Assembly: GCA_022825665.1 (NCBI GenBank)
Contig: JAJDWI010000128.1
Location: 1-60,418, forward strand
DNA length: 60,418 nt
Direction: 5' to 3'
DNA from: Candidatus Poribacteria bacterium
Lineage (GTDB): Bacteria; Poribacteria; WGA-4E; WGA-3G
In this document: positions 35,623-57,949 of the stretch, in pieces
Position numbering within the stretch: the stretch's first letter is position 1
How the letters are laid out: each line of letters starts with the position of its first letter
Notes under the pieces: model-generated
Told to the model about the DNA's origin: nothing
What the model saw: only the letters and a program-made list of their open reading frames with translations
Databases searched by the model: none
Translations under genes and position numbers: made by a program

Positions 35623-38613
35623 TTATTTTTGAAGGTTAAAATGGAACATTCCGTCGAATTGTGTCCCAAGGTATAAAGTTCTTCCAGTAACAACAAGAGA
35701 AGTTCCGCTACTCGCTAAATTTACTTTTGCGCTTTCAGGTATTTCTGTAATAATTTGTACCCAAGTGTCACTATCACTCTCTAAACGATAGATGCCTGTG
35801 TCTTTAGTGATTCCATAAAGCGTTGTGCCATCAACAGTCAATTCTTCCATGATTAGATTTGTTCCCTTTGTATCAGCGATTACTCGCCAATTTCTCCCAT
35901 CGTCTGATGTGAGGATACCAGCATTAGTCGCTACATACACGGTAGATCCAGCAACTACTATTTTTTTGTAAACTCTAACAGGAAATGGCAATGCTGGGGT
36001 GAGATCAATCCAATTATCTCCCCTATCATACGATACAACAAGGTGTCCATCTCGCTTCCCGCCGTAAATAGTGTCACCTGATACTGCAAGTTTGAGATTT
36101 TGCGAAGTTTCTTGTCCGATGTCCTGCCATTCTGTATCACCCGGTTTCCATCGGAAGATTTTAAAATTGTACTCCATATAGAACGTACCGTTACTGACTG
36201 CAAACGGTCCCTGAAGACCTATTCGGATGAGTGTTTCCTGGTCTTTAGGGGTTGATTGGAGCAACTTTTTGAAAAATTGTGTTGATCCCGAAAAATTCGT
36301 CTGCAACGTTTCCATAGAAAGATCTTGAGACTTACGCAAATGTTCTCTTAATTTTTTTGAGTCGAAGGTGGGTATGCCTTGAATAGGTACCAACTTATTG
36401 CCATCTTCAGATACGCGATAGTAACGCAATTCTCCTATTGGATAGTCACTTCTACCTTTTGCATATATAACACCATCAGATTCGATTATATGGGTAATCC
36501 ATGATTGGTTATCTCGGACAGGAGTGGTCATAGGTATTTGTTCCTGAATATGCTTCCAAGATTTACCCCTATCAGTTGTTTTCACTATACTAACCCCAGC
36601 TAATCCGTAGAGAGTTGACTGGATGCTTTTTATTTTTTCGTTTCGCTTATACGAGATTAAGTTTTGAATTCCTAACCATCTCCTATTCTGAGTGATATTT
36701 ACCTTGTTCCATGTTTTACCGCCATCAATAGAACGATGTAGACCTCTCCCTATAGCGAAAAATACACGTTCGTTTAATGCTACAGGGGGCGAATAAGGTT
36801 TTATATATGTAGGAAGCGTGTGGGGTTCTTGTGGGGGTAACCAAGTATCTCCTTCATCGGTAGAACGTACAATACCTCGCCCCATCAACATAACTGTTTC
36901 ACCAGCAGCAACAAGTTGGATATCTGGAGGAGGGGCTTTTAAGTGCCAAGCATTTGTCGGTGTAATATCTTTCCACGAATTTCCCATATCATCTGATCGG
37001 AATATCCACCATGTCCGCTGTCGTCCTTCCTGTATTGCTTTATCATCATAAAATTCATAGCCTAATCCTGCCAATACATACAACCGATCTTTAGTGTCTG
37101 CGGCATTGACGACTATTAATGCCTCAGGGACCGGTAATTCTATACGTTCCCAATTGCCGTTGTCCCAACGATAGAGTCCAGTATATGATCCAGCAAATAC
37201 TGTGTTTTGTATGTCTTTAATGAAGATGACACCTTTAAATAATTCAAAGTCTACCTCCTGCCATGTCTTACCTTTATCCTCAGAACGGACAACGTGATTG
37301 TAAAATGTTATCCAAAACCCTTGTTCTGTAAGCACCAATTCACGCGGGTGACGATAATCTTGTGTCCATGAATGAACTATTTCCCAAGTCTTACCATCAT
37401 CTTTTGAAGCCAATAATAAATTTTGCAAAACAATATAAAGAATATTGTCCCACTTTGCTATGGGAACATCTGTTATAATTGTAGTTTCATCCAGACTATC
37501 ATGATAGTCTCTAATGTCACCACTAAGTTGTTGCCATCCTGTTTTATCGTTTTGCCATTTGTATATGTGTGCATCAAAAACAGTGTAGAGTTGTCCATCA
37601 TCGGTTGCAAATAAATTTTCGACATCACTTCCCATGACAGGTCCGGACTGTATCCACTGCTGTTTGGGAACAGAAACATCCTCTCCTTCTGTATCTGCGG
37701 CAGCTAATAACACCTCGTCAGGTTTCTGACCGTTGTTATCGTTAATACTAAGTGGATTTGAACTTCCAAGTTGATTTCTCACATCATGCTTTGTTTCCAG
37801 ATTTAGCACTATAGGTGTATCAACGAGTTCTATCTTCATCTCTGCTTGTGCATCTAAAGAATAAGGTTGTTGAAAACGCAGTAAATGTTGACTGCCTAAT
37901 TCAAGTAACAGGACAAGCAAAACGGCGCTTGAAACAGCAACTGCCCACGGCACTAAAGGTTTGCCTCCTATAGGTGTAGCCGGTTTTAGTCGTTCGATTT
38001 CACGCATAATGTTTTCAGTGAGATGTGGTGTGATTTGGTAATTTTCTAATGCTTCTCTAATCATCGTTTCCTCCTTCTTTAATAGTTGCCGTGCACGGTA
38101 GAGTCGATTCTTTATTGCACTTACCGATACACCTAAAAACCTACTTATCTCCTCATACGTCATTCCTCCGAGGTAGTGTAGTGTTATGACCGTGCGTTCA
38201 CTTTCCTGTAGCTTCTCAAGCAACTTCTTGACAACTTCGCGTCGTGTTTCTGCCTCTACCCGTTCGTTTTCCTCTATGACATAGGTGGAATAGGTTTCTT
38301 TTTCTAACTCTGCCCTATCGGTATGTTCCAATGACTGTGTCGGCAGGCGTTTCTTACGATGCCACGTGTTGCAACGATTTACTACTATCACATATAGCCA
38401 ACTGGCAAAAGACTGTGGTTCTTTCAGCGTTGATAGTTCCTGATATGCCTTTAGAAATGTTTCCTGAGTGATGTCTTCTGCGATGTGGAAATCTCCAATC
38501 TTCCGCCACGCGAGTGCGTGCACAGACTTACGATATTTTCGGACGAGGTCAGAAAAGGCAGTCTCATCACCATCAAGGGTGCGTTGAATGAGTTCAACAT
38601 CGGCATTCTTCAT
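35623..38613 (-). CDS. ECF sigma factor fused to a membrane span and Asp-box propeller (copy 1)
   Basis: A 996-residue fusion. Residues 1-90 hold sigma region 2 (DETAFSDLVRKYRKS, DITQETFLKAYQELSTLK, SFASWLYVIVVNRC) and 130-182 region 4 (ERTVITLHYLGGMTYEEISR, SVSAIKNRLYRARQLLKKEE). A short linker (ITPHLTENIMREIERLKP) like the cytoplasmic part of anti-sigma factors leads to one span (about 219-240, PLVPWAVAVSSAVLLVLLLE). The remaining 750 residues carry about eight Asp boxes of the form SxDxGxxW (SKDDGKTW, SEDKGKTW, SIDGGKTW, SYDRGDNW), a sortilin/BNR-type propeller facing outward. I infer a sensor directly tied to its sigma factor. AGAGGT precedes the ATG; an ECF-like promoter lies at 38662-38688. 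Confidence 0.88.
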   Translation of the reverse strand: MKNADVELIQRTLDGDETAFSDLVRKYRKSVHALAWRKIGDFHIAEDITQETFLKAYQELSTLKEPQSFASWLYVIVVNRCNTWHRKKRLPTQSLEHTDRAELEKETYSTYVIEENERVEAETRREVVKKLLEKLQESERTVITLHYLGGMTYEEISRFLGVSVSAIKNRLYRARQLLKKEETMIREALENYQITPHLTENIMREIERLKPATPIGGKPLVPWAVAVSSAVLLVLLLELGSQHLLRFQQPYSLDAQAEMKIELVDTPIVLNLETKHDVRNQLGSSNPLSINDNNGQKPDEVLLAAADTEGEDVSVPKQQWIQSGPVMGSDVENLFATDDGQLYTVFDAHIYKWQNDKTGWQQLSGDIRDYHDSLDETTIITDVPIAKWDNILYIVLQNLLLASKDDGKTWEIVHSWTQDYRHPRELVLTEQGFWITFYNHVVRSEDKGKTWQEVDFELFKGVIFIKDIQNTVFAGSYTGLYRWDNGNWERIELPVPEALIVVNAADTKDRLYVLAGLGYEFYDDKAIQEGRQRTWWIFRSDDMGNSWKDITPTNAWHLKAPPPDIQLVAAGETVMLMGRGIVRSTDEGDTWLPPQEPHTLPTYIKPYSPPVALNERVFFAIGRGLHRSIDGGKTWNKVNITQNRRWLGIQNLISYKRNEKIKSIQSTLYGLAGVSIVKTTDRGKSWKHIQEQIPMTTPVRDNQSWITHIIESDGVIYAKGRSDYPIGELRYYRVSEDGNKLVPIQGIPTFDSKKLREHLRKSQDLSMETLQTNFSGSTQFFKKLLQSTPKDQETLIRIGLQGPFAVSNGTFYMEYNFKIFRWKPGDTEWQDIGQETSQNLKLAVSGDTIYGGKRDGHLVVSYDRGDNWIDLTPALPFPVRVYKKIVVAGSTVYVATNAGILTSDDGRNWRVIADTKGTNLIMEELTVDGTTLYGITKDTGIYRLESDSDTWVQIITEIPESAKVNLASSGTSLVVTGRTLYLGTQFDGMFHFNLQK

Positions 38614-40157: not shown

Positions 40158-41150
40158 TTAAGGGCGGTAAAAATTTCTGTCTATCTTGAAGAAATCTTCT
40201 GGAAAGTCCACGTTGAATAGTGCAGCAGTGACCTTTACTTTGCCACGACGACGGATTGTGCCATCATTTTTGTAATACGTTTCTTCTGTGTTGGTAGGAA
40301 ACCACACATCCTTATATTTTTGATAATTTTTAAATTCCCAGCGGAAACTGATTTGATCCGATTCCAAATTTACTGTAGATTCAAATTTGCGAATGCAGTA
40401 ACCTATAGATTTGTCCACCCAAATACTGACATTCTGTTTGAATTTGTTTGGAAATGTAATCACATAGCATTCTGCATCATCAACGGTTTCTTTACCAATA
40501 TATTTGGCATCATCAGGTACACGGAAAAGTGGTCTACCCCATAAGGAATAATGTCCGTATCCGTAGTATTGATTATCATTAAATATTTGAACTGCATTTG
40601 GTAAGTGAGAACGAGAAGAGAGAATTGTTCCGATTTCTAATCGGACCTGGTTTTGTGTGTCGAAAGCAAGTAAGTATATTAAACCAGCATGGTGATTTTG
40701 CGCGGGTTCACTATCAAGAGAAAGTCCTGGTGATTTTGTCAACGTTAACTTATAGTGATATAATTTAGGAAAAAAATCGGAATTCGGATCCTCAATCTGG
40801 AATAAGGTCGTCGCGTGTTCTATTACTGTGTGCCTGCGTTCCCTATTGTAATTATATTTCAGATTCGGTATGAGATAGTCATTTTTAAAAGTTTCCACGT
40901 CAACACCTTCATGAGGTATATATGTTTTTAATTCCTCTTCTATATCCTTTTGTATAGATGCAGCGATTTCTTCTTCCGTTTTTTTGGCAGTGTTTTCTTC
41001 AGTTGATTCTGTGTGAATTTCGCCACTTCTGATTGTCATTCGTGCCTTGTTTACGTTACGTATGAGTTCGTCTAATGAGATGTCTTCTGCATTACTCAAA
41101 GGATTAAAACAGAATAATATTATGGCTAAAGTTAAAACGATACGATACAT
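40158..41150 (-). CDS. Secreted LolA-like protein
   Basis: A 330-residue exported protein with a signal peptide (MYRIVLTLAIILFCFNPLSNA). The body has the long half-barrel strand pattern of LolA/LolB-like and outer-membrane-lipoprotein-sorting proteins, with DDAECYVITFPNKFKQNVSI and WVDKSIGYCIRKFESTV as the typical lipid-carrier strands and DVWFPTNTEETYYKNDG near the end. A coiled, charged insert (about 50-110) is unusual. It shares its start (SLDELIRNVNKARMTIRSGE) and end (NVDFPEDFFKIDR) with the next gene upstream. AAGGAG precedes the ATG. It probably binds a lipid or lipoprotein in the periplasm. Confidence 0.72.
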   Translation of the reverse strand: MYRIVLTLAIILFCFNPLSNAEDISLDELIRNVNKARMTIRSGEIHTESTEENTAKKTEEEIAASIQKDIEEELKTYIPHEGVDVETFKNDYLIPNLKYNYNRERRHTVIEHATTLFQIEDPNSDFFPKLYHYKLTLTKSPGLSLDSEPAQNHHAGLIYLLAFDTQNQVRLEIGTILSSRSHLPNAVQIFNDNQYYGYGHYSLWGRPLFRVPDDAKYIGKETVDDAECYVITFPNKFKQNVSIWVDKSIGYCIRKFESTVNLESDQISFRWEFKNYQKYKDVWFPTNTEETYYKNDGTIRRRGKVKVTAALFNVDFPEDFFKIDRNFYRP

Positions 41151-41266: not shown

Positions 41267-43327
41267 TTATTTTTCAATAACTTCACCGTGTATATACATC
41301 GCATGGGTGGCTTTCTTGTCTTTGTAGGAGTAATCAATCAATAGATATTGATTAATTGACCCAACGGGTAACGTCTTCAGCAGAAACAGTCTTGCCATTG
41401 GGATGTCACCGTCTGTATCTAACTTTGCTAATATGTGATCGGAATCGGTTCTGGCACCGTGAAGTACTACACCATCTTGTAGATGTAAGGACACCCGTTT
41501 TTCCAAATGATTCTTAAGAAGTTTTTTCCTACCCACAGCAATCATTTCTGGGAATGTACTGAATGGAAGAAATGATTCACCTTTGAATGTTAGCGTTAAT
41601 GTCTTATGTATTGGGTCATCTGTTTGGACAAGTATGCTCTCTTCAATCATATAGCTGCCGTGTGGAAGCTTCATGGTAGATAATATCTTTCCTGTTTTTC
41701 CCGGTTGAATCTCTCTAAGTGACACGAGAGAGGAGGTGCACGCTCAGGTATCAGTAATCTCAAGGATATTCAGAGGTTTTTGTCCAACGTTTTTGATGGT
41801 AAAAGTGTTTTTGACTTCTTTATCTGCAAGTATTTTACCGAAGTTGTAGACCGGTGCATCGGAGAATGCCAATGGCATCGGTTCTTGTTTTACACGTTTC
41901 TTTATATCAAAAACGAGGAGTTCTCCGTGCCATATCCCCGACAATGCGTCCCAAGTGATATGTGTAATATTTTCCAGAATTGAATCTGATATTTTGACTC
42001 CATCTACGTCTACAGATTCAAAGACAACAAAATGGTTGTTATTAAATTTCGCGATGGCGGGTAACGATACCTTATTACCCTTGAGTAATTCCAGTGAAGA
42101 TATAATAGTTTTTGGTGCTAAGCCTTTGTAGATAGCAGCTGCTTCAAGTCCTTCCATCGTTGTGCCGTTTTCAGCGTCAAACTCAGATAACTTCTTGAGT
42201 TCATCAATATTCGCATTAACTTTTAGCAGTTCGCATAAGTGTAGAAGACTATTCGGACCACAGAGTAGAAGTATGTTTTCTTGAGGTATTGGTGTTTCAG
42301 GTATTGGTTCTGTATCAGGGAGTTGTCCCATGTCTGGTGGTTCGTAATAGGTTCTGTCTATCTTGAAGAAATCTTTTGGAAAATCCACGTTGAATTGAGC
42401 TTCCAAAATTTCAACCGTGTAAAGATTAGCCATTACATTATTTCGTCCATAGTTGGAGTCTATCACGATCTGCGGATACCACAGATTTCCGATCTTTTTA
42501 AACTCTTTATAATCTTGACCCCATCGAATCTGTCTCTCTGGAGTATTGATAAGCAGTTCCATTTTATGGAGACTGAAATCTTTAGCAGGATCTACCCATA
42601 TCACCATTTTCAACCTGTTGTCTGATGGATTAAAGGTGAGAACATAACATTCCACATCGTCAATCGTTTCTTTTTCAATCAGTTTTGCATCGGGTGGCAC
42701 GTCATAAGGTGACCTGCCAAACAATGAATAAGGTGCCATACCACCTGATGCCTTAGGATGGTAAAATAGTGTATGTTCAGTGGCTAATATGATGTTTCCT
42801 AAATTCTGTCTAACTTGGGTTTGCATATCGTAAGCGTGTAGGTAGAGCTCATCTGTTTGTTGGAGCAGTTCGGAGTTTTGATCCAGAGGAATACCGGGTT
42901 TTTTCACCATTGTTAACTTATAATGATATTCTGCCGGACGTTCTGGAACATCCGGTTTTAGCATGTGGAATAGAGTGGTTTCCTGTTCAACTTGGTTGTG
43001 TTTGCGAAAACGATCTGCATCGGCTTTAAGTTGAACAGGGAGATATTCCTCTTCAAACTTCTTTACATCAGCATCGGTATGGCGTTGATTTTGTCTGAAT
43101 TCCTTTAATCGTTCTTCCTTTTTTGTTTTTATCCACTCAGCGATTTCTTCCTCTGTTTTTTCTGCCCTGATATGTTGTGTCGTTCTACTAATTATTTCTC
43201 CGCTTTTGATATGGAGACGTGCCTTGTTTACGCCACGTATTAGTTCGTCTAAGGATATGTCTTCTGCGTAAATCAAAGAGTTAACCAAGCATAACATCAT
43301 AGTAATGATGAAAACAATTCTATACAT
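41267..43327 (-). CDS. LolA-like / C39-peptidase-like / DUF1573 protein with in-frame UGA
   Basis: From ATG 43327 (behind AGGAGG) the frame runs 527 residues to TGA at 41744-41746, then stays open 158 more codons to 41267. Residues 1-21 are a signal peptide; 22-330 a LolA-like domain as in the next gene; about 350-475 a C39-like cysteine peptidase (C356 in LCGPNSLL, H432 in NHFVVFE, then ISDS); from about 488 a DUF1573 domain. The TGA falls where DUF1573 has the first Cys of its CGC motif: TDT-stop-ACT. If read as selenocysteine the protein has 686 residues; if not, the gene is broken. GTG 41725 could start the tail alone but gives half a domain. Confidence 0.72.
41710..41746 (-). other. UGA codon and candidate bacterial SECIS hairpin
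   Basis: Eighteen bases after the UGA (41746-41744) a 10-base loop starting with G (41725-41716) is closed by a 6-bp stem, UCUCUC with GAGAGA. Stem, loop size, leading G and distance agree with the general pattern of bacterial SECIS elements. The stem is short and the loop lacks a clear GGU, so this is only a candidate. Confidence 0.4.
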
Positions 43328-43399
43328 GCTATTCCTCCTATATATACTATACATCTACAAATAGGTCTGTTTTGCGTTTTTCTGATTGACCAGCAACTG

Positions 43400-44420: not shown

Positions 44421-47400
44421 TTATTCGTCAAGATTGTAATAAAGCATATCCTTATCCCACATGCTCACGTAAACTGTATTTTCCTCAACAGCGAGGGAAG
44501 TTACCCGTTCAGGTATATCAGGAATAACTTGTTCCCATGTTCCGTCTTGTAAGCGATAAACACCTGTGTCTTTGGTAGAACCGTAGAGGGTATCTTGGTC
44601 AACTGCCAGTTTTTCTATAATTAGGTTTGTGCCTGCTGCATTGGTTATAGATCGCCAGTTTTTCCCATTCTCTGACGTAGCCACACCTGCGTCTGTTGCC
44701 ACATAGACATTAGGTCCAACAAATACAATCTCTTTAAATGCTCTAACAGGAAATGGCAGAGCAGGTGTGAGATTGAGCCAATTATTTCCTGTATCAAACG
44801 ATACGACAAGATTGCCATCCCATTTTCCGACGTAAACGGTGTCATCTAAAACGGCAAGTTTGAATCCACCTGTCCAAGTTCTGAGAATATCGTCAATTTT
44901 TTCCTGTGACAGACCTTCACGTTCATAAGCCTTTGCAGCGTCCATATATATAAGGTGCCCCGTCTCTTCCACACCTGTGTCATACCACTCTGTATCTCCC
45001 CGCTTGCATCGGAAGAGCTTAAAATTATATTCTAAGTAAAACGTGTTACCACTGACTGCAAACGCACCAGATAAACCCGATTCTATAAGTCGGTACTGTG
45101 TCTGAAAAAGATCATTTTGATAAAGTTTTTCTTCACTTAGAATATCGCCTTTCGCTATCTGGCTGAAGAACTGGTCTGCCCCCAAAAAATTATTTTTCAA
45201 CTGTTCAGCGAACGATTTTTCTGATAAGTCCAAATCCCCTTTTTTACCTTTAAACCAAAGGTCGTTCAATTGTCTTGAATTAAAGGATGGTATGTCCTCT
45301 ATAGGCATTATATTACCATCTTCAGAGATGTGATATATACTTATTTGCAGTGATTTATCTATAACACCTCTTCCTTTTGCATAGAGTATATTATCGCATT
45401 TATTAATTTGTCTAAAGGATGGTGGTGCTCTACCTATAGATGTAATAGGGACTCCTATCTGAACAGTCTTCCAGGATTTGCCTTTGTCTGTGGTTTTTGC
45501 TATTTCTCCTGCTATTAGTCCGTAGAGAGTAGATGGGATGTTCTGTCCCTTATTGTTTTTCCTATTGACGATAAGGCTATCTATTGGAAGCGAATTCTCT
45601 GGTGTGAAATTTATCGTCTCCCAAGATTTACCTGTATCTGTAGAACGAGATAGACCGTCGTCCGGACTACCAACGTAAATAATGCTCTCGTCTATCACCG
45701 CAGCAGGACTAAATTCATCCATTATAGGTGTGGTGTCCGGTGATTGTAAGGGTAACCATGTATTTCCACCATCTTCAGAACGAACCATTCCTCGTTCCAT
45801 CAACAAAAGTGTTTCACCAGCAGCGATAAGTTTGAGATCGGGAGGGTACCCCACTAAAGCCCATGCATTTGTAGGCGTTATATCCTCCCATGATTCTCCA
45901 ATGTCAGTTGATCGGAATACCCACCAATTCCGTTCTTTTTTCCACAATGGATTACTTATTCCTACTACATATAGTCGATCTTTGGTTGCTATGATTGAGG
46001 TTACTCCAATATCTGTATGTCCTTCAATTGCTCTGGTGACCGGGTATTTTAAGTGTTCCCAACTATCAGTGTTCCAGCGATAGAGTCCAGACTTTGTGCC
46101 AGCAAACATTGTGTCTTGGGTCTCTACTACAGTGGTAAGTGGTCCGGGAAATTCGTTGATTGCATCATTCCATGTCTTTCCGTTATCATCAGAACGAAAA
46201 ACAGTGTTATCAGAAAAAATGAGATAAATAGCATGCTTTGTTGTCGCAAAATTTAAGAGTATCCTATTGTGATCTACTGGAAAGGCATAAAGAAACTTCC
46301 ACGTCTTACCATCATCTTCTGAAGCGAATAGCCTTTGTTTGGACAGTAGCATATAGAGGGTATTGTTCCATTTTTTCATAGGCGCGAACCTACTATAATC
46401 AGTATCCAGCGTTTTTACATTGGAGATTTGTTGCCATTCTTCCGTATCGGTGATAAATTTGTAGACTTCTCCATAAAAATAGGTGAATAGTTCTCCATCA
46501 GATGTTGCGGTTAGACCTCCTACATCACTCCCTTTTACTGGTCCGGACTGTATCCATTGTTGCTTAGGAACAGAAACGTCTTCTCCTTCTGCTTCTGCGG
46601 AAGCCAATAATATCTCATTAGGTTTTTGACCGTTGTTATCACTCTTACTAACTATGTTTGGAGTCCCTATTTGATTTTGAATATCTGGTTCTGTGTCAAT
46701 GTTCAGTATAACAGGTGATTCAACGAGTTCAACCGTTGTCCTTGCTTGTGCATCTAAAGAATAAGGTTGTTGAAAACGCAGGAAATATTGACTGCCTAAT
46801 CCAAGTAACAGGACAAGCAAAACGGCACTTGAAACAGCAACTGCCCACGGCACTAAAGGTTTGCCTCCTGTAGGTGCAGCCGGTTTTAGTCGTTCGATTT
46901 CACGCATAATGTTTTCTGTTAGATGTGGTGTGATTTGGTAATTCTCTAAAGCCTCTCTAATCATCGTTTCCTCCTTCTTTAATAGTTGCCGTGCACGGTA
47001 GAGTCGATTCTTTATTGCACTTACCGATACACCTAAAAACTTGCTAATCTCCTCATACGTCATTCCCCCGAGGTAGTGTAACGTGATGATAGTGCGGTCA
47101 CTTTCCTGTAGCTTCTCAAGCAATTTCTTAACAACTTCGCGCTTTGCCTCTGCTGTTGTTCTCTCGTTTTCTGCACTGATATAGCTGGAATAGGTTGCTT
47201 TTTCCAGATCTGCATTATTGATGTTATCCAACGATTGTGTCTGCAATCGTTTCTTACGTTGCCACGCCTTGCATCGATTTGCCGCTATGACATAGAGCCA
47301 ACTCTCAAAAGACCTTGGTTCCTTCAACGTTGACAATCTTTGATATACCTTCAGAAATGTATCCTGGGCTATTTCCTCAGCGATATGGAAATCTTGAATC

Positions 47401-47513
47401 TTCCGCCAAGCAAGTGCATGCACAGACTTTTGATATTTTTTGACGAGTTCGGAGAATGCCGTATCATCACCGTCAAGGACACGTTGAATGAGTTCGACAT
47501 CAACATTTTTCAT
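44421..47513 (-). CDS. ECF sigma factor fused to a membrane span and Asp-box propeller (copy 2)
   Basis: A 1030-residue paralogue of the 35623 gene. Sigma region 2 (DDTAFSELVKKYQKS, EIAQDTFLKVYQRLSTLK) and region 4 (DRTIITLHYLGGMTYEEISK) are followed by a linker and span that are almost identical to copy 1 from residue 138 to about 258. The outward part holds about eight Asp boxes (SEDDGKTW, SDDNGKTW, STDIGESW, STDTGKSW, SFDTGNNW) but is much more diverged, with a 30-residue longer insert. So the output half and span are kept or converted while the sensor varies. The ECF-like promoter at 47563-47589 matches copy 1. FGE-like gene follows after 235 bases. Confidence 0.88.
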   Translation of the reverse strand: MKNVDVELIQRVLDGDDTAFSELVKKYQKSVHALAWRKIQDFHIAEEIAQDTFLKVYQRLSTLKEPRSFESWLYVIAANRCKAWQRKKRLQTQSLDNINNADLEKATYSSYISAENERTTAEAKREVVKKLLEKLQESDRTIITLHYLGGMTYEEISKFLGVSVSAIKNRLYRARQLLKKEETMIREALENYQITPHLTENIMREIERLKPAAPTGGKPLVPWAVAVSSAVLLVLLLGLGSQYFLRFQQPYSLDAQARTTVELVESPVILNIDTEPDIQNQIGTPNIVSKSDNNGQKPNEILLASAEAEGEDVSVPKQQWIQSGPVKGSDVGGLTATSDGELFTYFYGEVYKFITDTEEWQQISNVKTLDTDYSRFAPMKKWNNTLYMLLSKQRLFASEDDGKTWKFLYAFPVDHNRILLNFATTKHAIYLIFSDNTVFRSDDNGKTWNDAINEFPGPLTTVVETQDTMFAGTKSGLYRWNTDSWEHLKYPVTRAIEGHTDIGVTSIIATKDRLYVVGISNPLWKKERNWWVFRSTDIGESWEDITPTNAWALVGYPPDLKLIAAGETLLLMERGMVRSEDGGNTWLPLQSPDTTPIMDEFSPAAVIDESIIYVGSPDDGLSRSTDTGKSWETINFTPENSLPIDSLIVNRKNNKGQNIPSTLYGLIAGEIAKTTDKGKSWKTVQIGVPITSIGRAPPSFRQINKCDNILYAKGRGVIDKSLQISIYHISEDGNIMPIEDIPSFNSRQLNDLWFKGKKGDLDLSEKSFAEQLKNNFLGADQFFSQIAKGDILSEEKLYQNDLFQTQYRLIESGLSGAFAVSGNTFYLEYNFKLFRCKRGDTEWYDTGVEETGHLIYMDAAKAYEREGLSQEKIDDILRTWTGGFKLAVLDDTVYVGKWDGNLVVSFDTGNNWLNLTPALPFPVRAFKEIVFVGPNVYVATDAGVATSENGKNWRSITNAAGTNLIIEKLAVDQDTLYGSTKDTGVYRLQDGTWEQVIPDIPERVTSLAVEENTVYVSMWDKDMLYYNLDE

Positions 47514-56791: not shown

Positions 56792-57949
56792 ATGAAACGC
56801 CTAATAGTAAATTCATTGGGACAAATTCGTGAAGCTGATATTACTTTTGGAGATTTGACAGTGTTTGTGGGTGAACAAGCAAGCGGAAAAAGCATTTTGC
56901 TTCAGCTTGTGAAGTTAATATTAGATGTCGGTGACATTACGCAGACACTCAAAAAAAACGGTTATGATTGGCACGAAAAGACAGAGAATTTCCTATCTCT
57001 CTATTTCGGGGAAGGAATGGAAGGAATTTGGGACAATTCTACGACAAAAATCACTGTTGACGACGAGAATTTTGATCTTGATAAAGCATTTTCCAAAAAG
57101 GGCAAAAAAAAAGAGGAAAGACTATTCCTGATTCCCGCGCACCGTGCAATGACACTTAAGGATGGATGGCCCCGAACCTTTACTGACTATGGCATGAGCG
57201 ATCCGTATGTTGTTAAGGAATTCAGCGAACAATTACGACTCTTGATGGAGACCGGATTAGGTTCTGGTAAGAGTGCTATCTTTCCACAAGAAGGTCGTAT
57301 GAACAAAACAATACGAGATGCAATTGGAAAAAGTATCTTTGGAAAGGCAGAAGTAAGATTGGATAAATCCGGGCTGCGTAAACGAATTGTATTAGATGTT
57401 GCTGGCACCCAACTACCTTTTATGGTGTGGTCTACAGGTCAGAGAGAATTCGCCCCTCTTTTACTGGGAATGTACTGGTTAATGCCTTCAGGAAATACAC
57501 AAAAGAAAAATAACATCAACTGGGTTGTAATTGAGGAACCGGAAATGGGGTTACATCCTCAAGCGATCTCTGCACTTCTTTTAATGTTCTTAGAACTATT
57601 GAGGCGCGGTTATAAAGTCATTGTTTCTACCCATTCACCCCAAATTTTAGAACTTGTTTGGGCAATTCAACTCATTGCAAAATCAAAATCTGCTCAAACC
57701 CGATTAAGACAACTATTAGATTTGAAGTCAAATGCCTTTTCCCTTGACCTCACGAAGTCAATCTTGGATGCCAAAACATACAAAACATATTATTTTTTCC
57801 ATCAGGATGATGTCGTTGATGTTAGAGACATTTCAACATTAGATGCTGAGGATATGGATGAGGCAGTGTCAGACTGGGGAGGATTAACAGCATTCAGCAC
57901 AAAAGCTTCTGAAGTAGTTTCTGATGCTATGAGGAGGGCAGACCTGTGA
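56792..57949 (+). CDS. OLD/ABC-type AAA ATPase
   Basis: A 385-residue ATPase. Walker A GEQASGKS (27-34) follows a short strand; WSTGQREFAPLLLG (about 210) resembles the ABC signature; WVVIEEPEMGLHPQAI is Walker B with two Glu and the D-loop-like LHP; VIVSTHSPQILE is the switch His. This is the compact AAA_15/AAA_21 layout found in OLD, Gabija, Septu and related defence proteins, but without the TOPRIM nuclease half. A GTGA overlap and strong GAGGAGGG link it to the next gene, so the two act together. Confidence 0.88.
   Translation: MKRLIVNSLGQIREADITFGDLTVFVGEQASGKSILLQLVKLILDVGDITQTLKKNGYDWHEKTENFLSLYFGEGMEGIWDNSTTKITVDDENFDLDKAFSKKGKKKEERLFLIPAHRAMTLKDGWPRTFTDYGMSDPYVVKEFSEQLRLLMETGLGSGKSAIFPQEGRMNKTIRDAIGKSIFGKAEVRLDKSGLRKRIVLDVAGTQLPFMVWSTGQREFAPLLLGMYWLMPSGNTQKKNNINWVVIEEPEMGLHPQAISALLLMFLELLRRGYKVIVSTHSPQILELVWAIQLIAKSKSAQTRLRQLLDLKSNAFSLDLTKSILDAKTYKTYYFFHQDDVVDVRDISTLDAEDMDEAVSDWGGLTAFSTKASEVVSDAMRRADL

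Follow-up and report, generated by a model that had tools for sequence, protein, structure and literature searches.

A probable selenocysteine codon in the DUF1573 domain of a C39-like fusion protein from Candidatus Poribacteria

Gene organization and domain architecture

The DNA analyzed here (the window) is 60,418 nucleotides long and represents one entire contig of a 4.53 Mb Candidatus Poribacteria bin, which is 95% complete. Close relatives of this genome from the named collection all belong to Candidatus Poribacteria. On the minus strand lies a long reading frame, beginning at an ATG (43327) with AGGAGG just 5′ and ending at 41267, that contains a single in-frame TGA (Table 1). This TGA is codon 528 of 687, with 158 sense codons beyond it. 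An earlier reading of the sequence alone (hereafter the sequence-only reading) had given these coordinates and this length of open frame past the UGA, and both were borne out. The residues around the codon are EITDT-U-ACTSSLVSLREIQPG, the immediate context being ITDT-U-ACTSSLV.

Table 1. Features of the predicted selenoprotein gene in the window
Feature	Position	Strand	Basis
Predicted selenoprotein gene, 686 residues, Sec at position 528	41267..43327	-	frame, Pfam, structure model
Shine-Dalgarno-like AGGAGGA, 5′ of ATG 43327	43333..43339	-	
Probable N-terminal signal peptide (MYRIVFIITMMLCLVNSLIYA)	43262..43327	-	by eye only
LolA-like region (PF17131), weak, under gathering score	42362..42691	-	Pfam
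Peptidase C39-like domain (PF03412)	41906..42262	-	Pfam, structure model
DUF1573 domain (PF07610), UGA inside	41576..41854	-	Pfam
In-frame TGA, first Cys of DUF1573 CxC motif (U-A-C)	41744..41746	-	
62 bases (UGA onward) identical to L023; candidate SECIS region	41685..41746	-	
Hairpin UCUCUC-GUGUCACUUA-GAGAGA, candidate bacterial SECIS	41710..41731	-	

The order of domains is an N-terminal LolA-like region, a C39 peptidase-like domain, DUF1573 and a β-rich (Ig-like) C-terminal part. With TGA read as Cys, the DUF1573 match in Pfam scores 55.4 bits (gathering cut-off 26.1), and a profile search of the genome gave a DUF1573 match of 52 bits with one TGA within it. The Peptidase C39 match scores 50.2 bits (gathering cut-off 22). 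A structure model with a mean pLDDT of 86 shows a C39 fold and an Ig-like fold. The UGA had been placed where the DUF1573 CxC motif has its first Cys; in agreement with this, the Pfam domain covers the site, and homologues carry Cys or UGA there.

Ordinary annotation would end the gene at the UGA. UGA does serve as a normal stop elsewhere in the window, as the sequence-only reading had pointed out: TGA terminates the ORFs that start at 56792 and 59146. Among the 44 open frames of at least 200 codons in the window, there are three cases of a stop followed by at least 150 open codons. The two others (12427 and 33133) continue into separate listed downstream ORFs.

Directly downstream of the gene (40158–41150, minus strand) is a paralogue of its N-terminal half, 41% identical and without C39 or DUF1573. 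Similar adjacent paralogue copies are found in two other genomes, G003 and G017. The gene is flanked, one per side, by two long proteins that combine ECF sigma-70 regions 2 and 4 with BNR/sortilin-like repeats (35623–38613 and 44421–47513, both minus strand).

Cys or UGA in homologues

The nearest homologue, L023 (genome G010, Candidatus Poribacteria SB0677_bin_25; also L054), likewise reads TGA at this codon, and its frame ends at the same place. Its identity to the window protein is 68% across the match and 79% within the C39-DUF1573 part, and its bin belongs to a different species of the same genus. The N-terminal half of L023 is broken in frame by a run of 10 N; we considered and rejected a true lesion here, as these 10 N are an assembly gap. 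L023 is the only close relative that shares the UGA. Seven other close homologues from Poribacteria (L024–L029 and L032), which have the same architecture and are 31–52% identical over the 336-residue C39-DUF1573 part, all carry TGT or TGC at this position (7/7). The alignment of homologues called for by the sequence-only reading showed Cys or UGA at the position of codon 528.

Outside the phylum, two genomes encode other DUF1573 proteins (L046 and L047) in which this codon is again TGA, with the motif UGC. In both of these genomes, selA, selB, tRNA-Sec and selD were all found.

We surveyed 85 genomes of the phylum and, among the matches listed, found internal stops in only three DUF1573 matches: the window gene, L023 and a contig-edge fragment. 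This fragment, L069 (G004:C55:1-400), was not counted as a further UGA form; its TGA is off the CxC Cys, and the TGA is probably a stop or an error.

Conservation of the sequence downstream of UGA

Comparison of the window gene with L023 gave a dN/dS of 0.217 over the 158 codons downstream of the UGA and of 0.223 over the 150 codons upstream. The values are equally low on either side, and therefore the part past the UGA is evidently translated and kept.

All 57 bases that follow the UGA are the same in L023 (57/57), compared to 105/120 and 102/120 in the flanks, and about 45% of the synonymous sites further downstream differ between the two genes. The longest identical run consists of the UGA and the next 19 codons, at 20 codons or 62 bases; when codon identity was shuffled 100,000 times, 110 shuffles reached this length. 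Codons past the UGA are identical in 19 of 19 cases, versus 178 of 255 degenerate codons for conserved residues elsewhere (Fisher P = 0.0025). When four pairs of Cys homologues were compared, conservation over the corresponding stretch was lower than in the preceding flank, and lower than or about equal to that in the following flank. A functional RNA immediately after the UGA, such as a SECIS element, would be expected to leave this pattern.

A hairpin lies within this region. It has a 6-bp stem, a 10-nt loop with G in first position, the loop 18 nt past the UGA, and an MFE of –7.5. In a published model of the bacterial SECIS (PMC13188914), the stem is 4–16 bp, the loop 3–9 nt with G in one of its first two positions, the spacing from UGA to loop 16–37 nt, and the energy ≤ –7.5 kcal/mol. 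Hence, the loop is one base over, and the MFE lies exactly at the limit. The hairpin of the sequence-only reading was thus recovered, with its spacing and leading G, but its energy is unremarkable: in a 61-nt context, z = +0.64 against shuffles. Comparable hairpins (stem ≥6, loop ≤10 nt, MFE ≤ –7.5) follow 7% of the TGA triplets in the window. We therefore rejected hairpin energy as proof of a SECIS element, as it is not above that of shuffles and such hairpins are common after random TGA. The hairpin alone proves little, and nucleotide conservation is the stronger evidence. The hairpin region is identical in the window gene and L023. The seven Cys homologues differ in having no matching hairpin and no raised nucleotide conservation past the codon. 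In L046 and L047, the hairpin is a different one, with 7 bp and the loop GUU, 14 nt past the UGA, slightly nearer than the 16–37 nt of the model.

Selenocysteine machinery in the host genome and phylum

The sequence-only reading had asked whether the genome contains selA, selB, selC and selD, and all four are present. Matches to selA (612 bits), selB (354 bits) and selD (362 bits) all exceed curated cut-offs. The tRNA-Sec (selC) scores 78 bits, also over cut-off; it has the anticodon UCA and begins ∼60 bases past the selB match. The host selD (L021, G000:C115:56502-57428) has an in-frame UGA of its own (VKCAG-U-ASK) and itself appears to be a second selenoprotein gene. A selD with one TGA inside is seen in G004, G007, G023 and G141 as well. 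In G085, selD (L079, G085:C74:520-1443) lies within an open frame of 748 residues and may be fused to another domain.

We found selA over cut-off in 26 of the 30 genomes tested, mostly Poribacteria, and Sec decoding is therefore widespread among members of the phylum. G007 is without a full selA, yet selB, selC and selD are present; G004 is without selA, selB and selC over cut-off, yet has the UGA-containing selD. In the bin that contains L023 (G010, 73% complete), no selA, selB, tRNA-Sec or selD was found over cut-off. The chance of missing all of these genes through incompleteness alone is ∼2%, provided that they are spread over three loci, as they are in the genome of the window. Possible reasons are misbinning of the 3.3-kb contig or a recent loss of the Sec machinery in that species. 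The absence of sel genes from G010 somewhat weakens the support that L023 provides, but not the case made by the window's own genome.

Relation to known DUF1573 selenoproteins

DUF1573 selenoproteins with a UGC motif are credited to work by Zhang and Gladyshev in 2007 on the symbiont of Olavius algarvensis. DUF1573 (PF07610) with a UGC motif is a listed selenoprotein family (PMC9312934; CAB1076174.1), and such a protein is also listed in PMC13188914 (MDJ0815992.1). Our gene is like these in having Sec, as predicted, at the first Cys of the CxC motif, and in having abundant Cys homologues. It differs in coming from Candidatus Poribacteria, in its UAC motif and in its fusion to a C39 peptidase-like domain. 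In the literature searched, we found no report of a Sec-containing DUF1573 in Poribacteria or in C39-DUF1573 fusions. Sec at the first DUF1573 Cys is thus already known; what is new here is the fusion of C39-like and DUF1573 domains, the UAC motif and the phylum. Candidatus Poribacteria, known sponge symbionts, would join the users of selenocysteine in DUF1573.

To place the UGA forms, we used a tree of the DUF1573 domain in which U was read as C in all rows. UGA forms occupy two places on this tree, the window gene and the UGC forms L046 and L047 belonging to different clades, and a single clade of UGA forms was rejected (p-AU 2.8e-5). This rejection implies either two or more changes between Cys and Sec, or a single change that reverted several times; Sec was probably gained on at least two occasions.

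Interpretation of the UGA codon

We conclude that the gene most likely encodes a bacterial selenoprotein with Sec inserted at UGA codon 528, and we put the probability of this at about 0.9. Sec insertion, which the sequence-only reading had proposed, very probably takes place, given the frame, the domain that spans the codon, the pairing of Cys and UGA among homologues, the selection downstream, the conservation of the UGA and the next 57 bases in a diverged relative, and the full set of sel genes. SelB and Sec-tRNA(UCA), guided by RNA just past the UGA, would insert Sec at codon 528, which corresponds to the first CxC Cys of DUF1573 in most relatives. The protein, with its LolA-like, C39 peptidase-like and DUF1573/Ig-like domains, looks exported. 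Sec528 and Cys530 (Sec-Ala-Cys) would most likely form a redox pair on an Ig-like domain in the cell envelope, and we propose that they act as a selenenylsulfide/selenol switch. Sec appears to have taken the place of this Cys in two or more clades, and it can therefore be argued that the first CxC Cys of DUF1573 is chemically active.

UGA decoding as Sec is generally inefficient. It is possible, although rather unlikely, that Sec is inserted but the pair is metal-binding or structural, or that the UGA serves mainly as a selenium-dependent switch between products of 527 and 686 residues. This inefficiency would suit such a switch, the classic redox motif, UxxC, is longer than UxC, and the DUF1573 fold is Ig-like; moreover, no function of DUF1573 was found in the literature searched. 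Against this, a redox-active Cys is typically recognized by its exchange with Sec at a single codon in separate clades, following the rationale of PMC1794560. A further proposal, which we regard as doubtful, joins two ideas: that the change from Cys to Sec in the CxC motif of a C39-DUF1573 envelope protein of Poribacteria was separate from that in the UGC forms, and that the Sec site decides, in a selenium-dependent manner, whether a form of 527 residues with an incomplete DUF1573 or a full-length redox form is made.

The sequence-only reading had also considered a fresh nonsense change, which would make this a young pseudogene, cut inside DUF1573 by mutation of a Cys codon. A single base change would suffice to turn TGC or TGT into TGA, and the cluster includes some adjacent paralogues that are only partial copies. 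However, a second genome has the same UGA, dN/dS downstream is 0.22, and no other stop or frameshift is present over the 158 codons. Furthermore, the break in the N-terminal half of L023 reflects an assembly gap, and conservation across the stretch compared is highest in the nucleotides past the UGA. These data make a nonsense mutation very unlikely. A sequencing or assembly error that turned TGC or TGT into TGA is conceivable in a metagenome-assembled genome but has almost no credibility here, given that another bin, from a different species with 68–79% protein identity, has TGA there too.

The C39-like domain

The C39 domain in the selenoprotein predicted here (modelled residues 6–124) resembles that of the bacteriocin exporter PCAT1 (7n87) and the C39-like 3zua in both fold and sequence. 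Unlike in the bacteriocin exporters, no ABC transporter is fused to it. The window protein has the C39 Cys, within a CGP motif. This catalytic Cys is not kept across the subfamily, with CGP replaced by SSL in L025 (G003) and by SGL in L026 (G017). Because of its loss from these two homologues, peptidase activity of the C39 part is doubtful, and the domain may be inactive; the two substitutions suggest a non-catalytic, C39-like domain.
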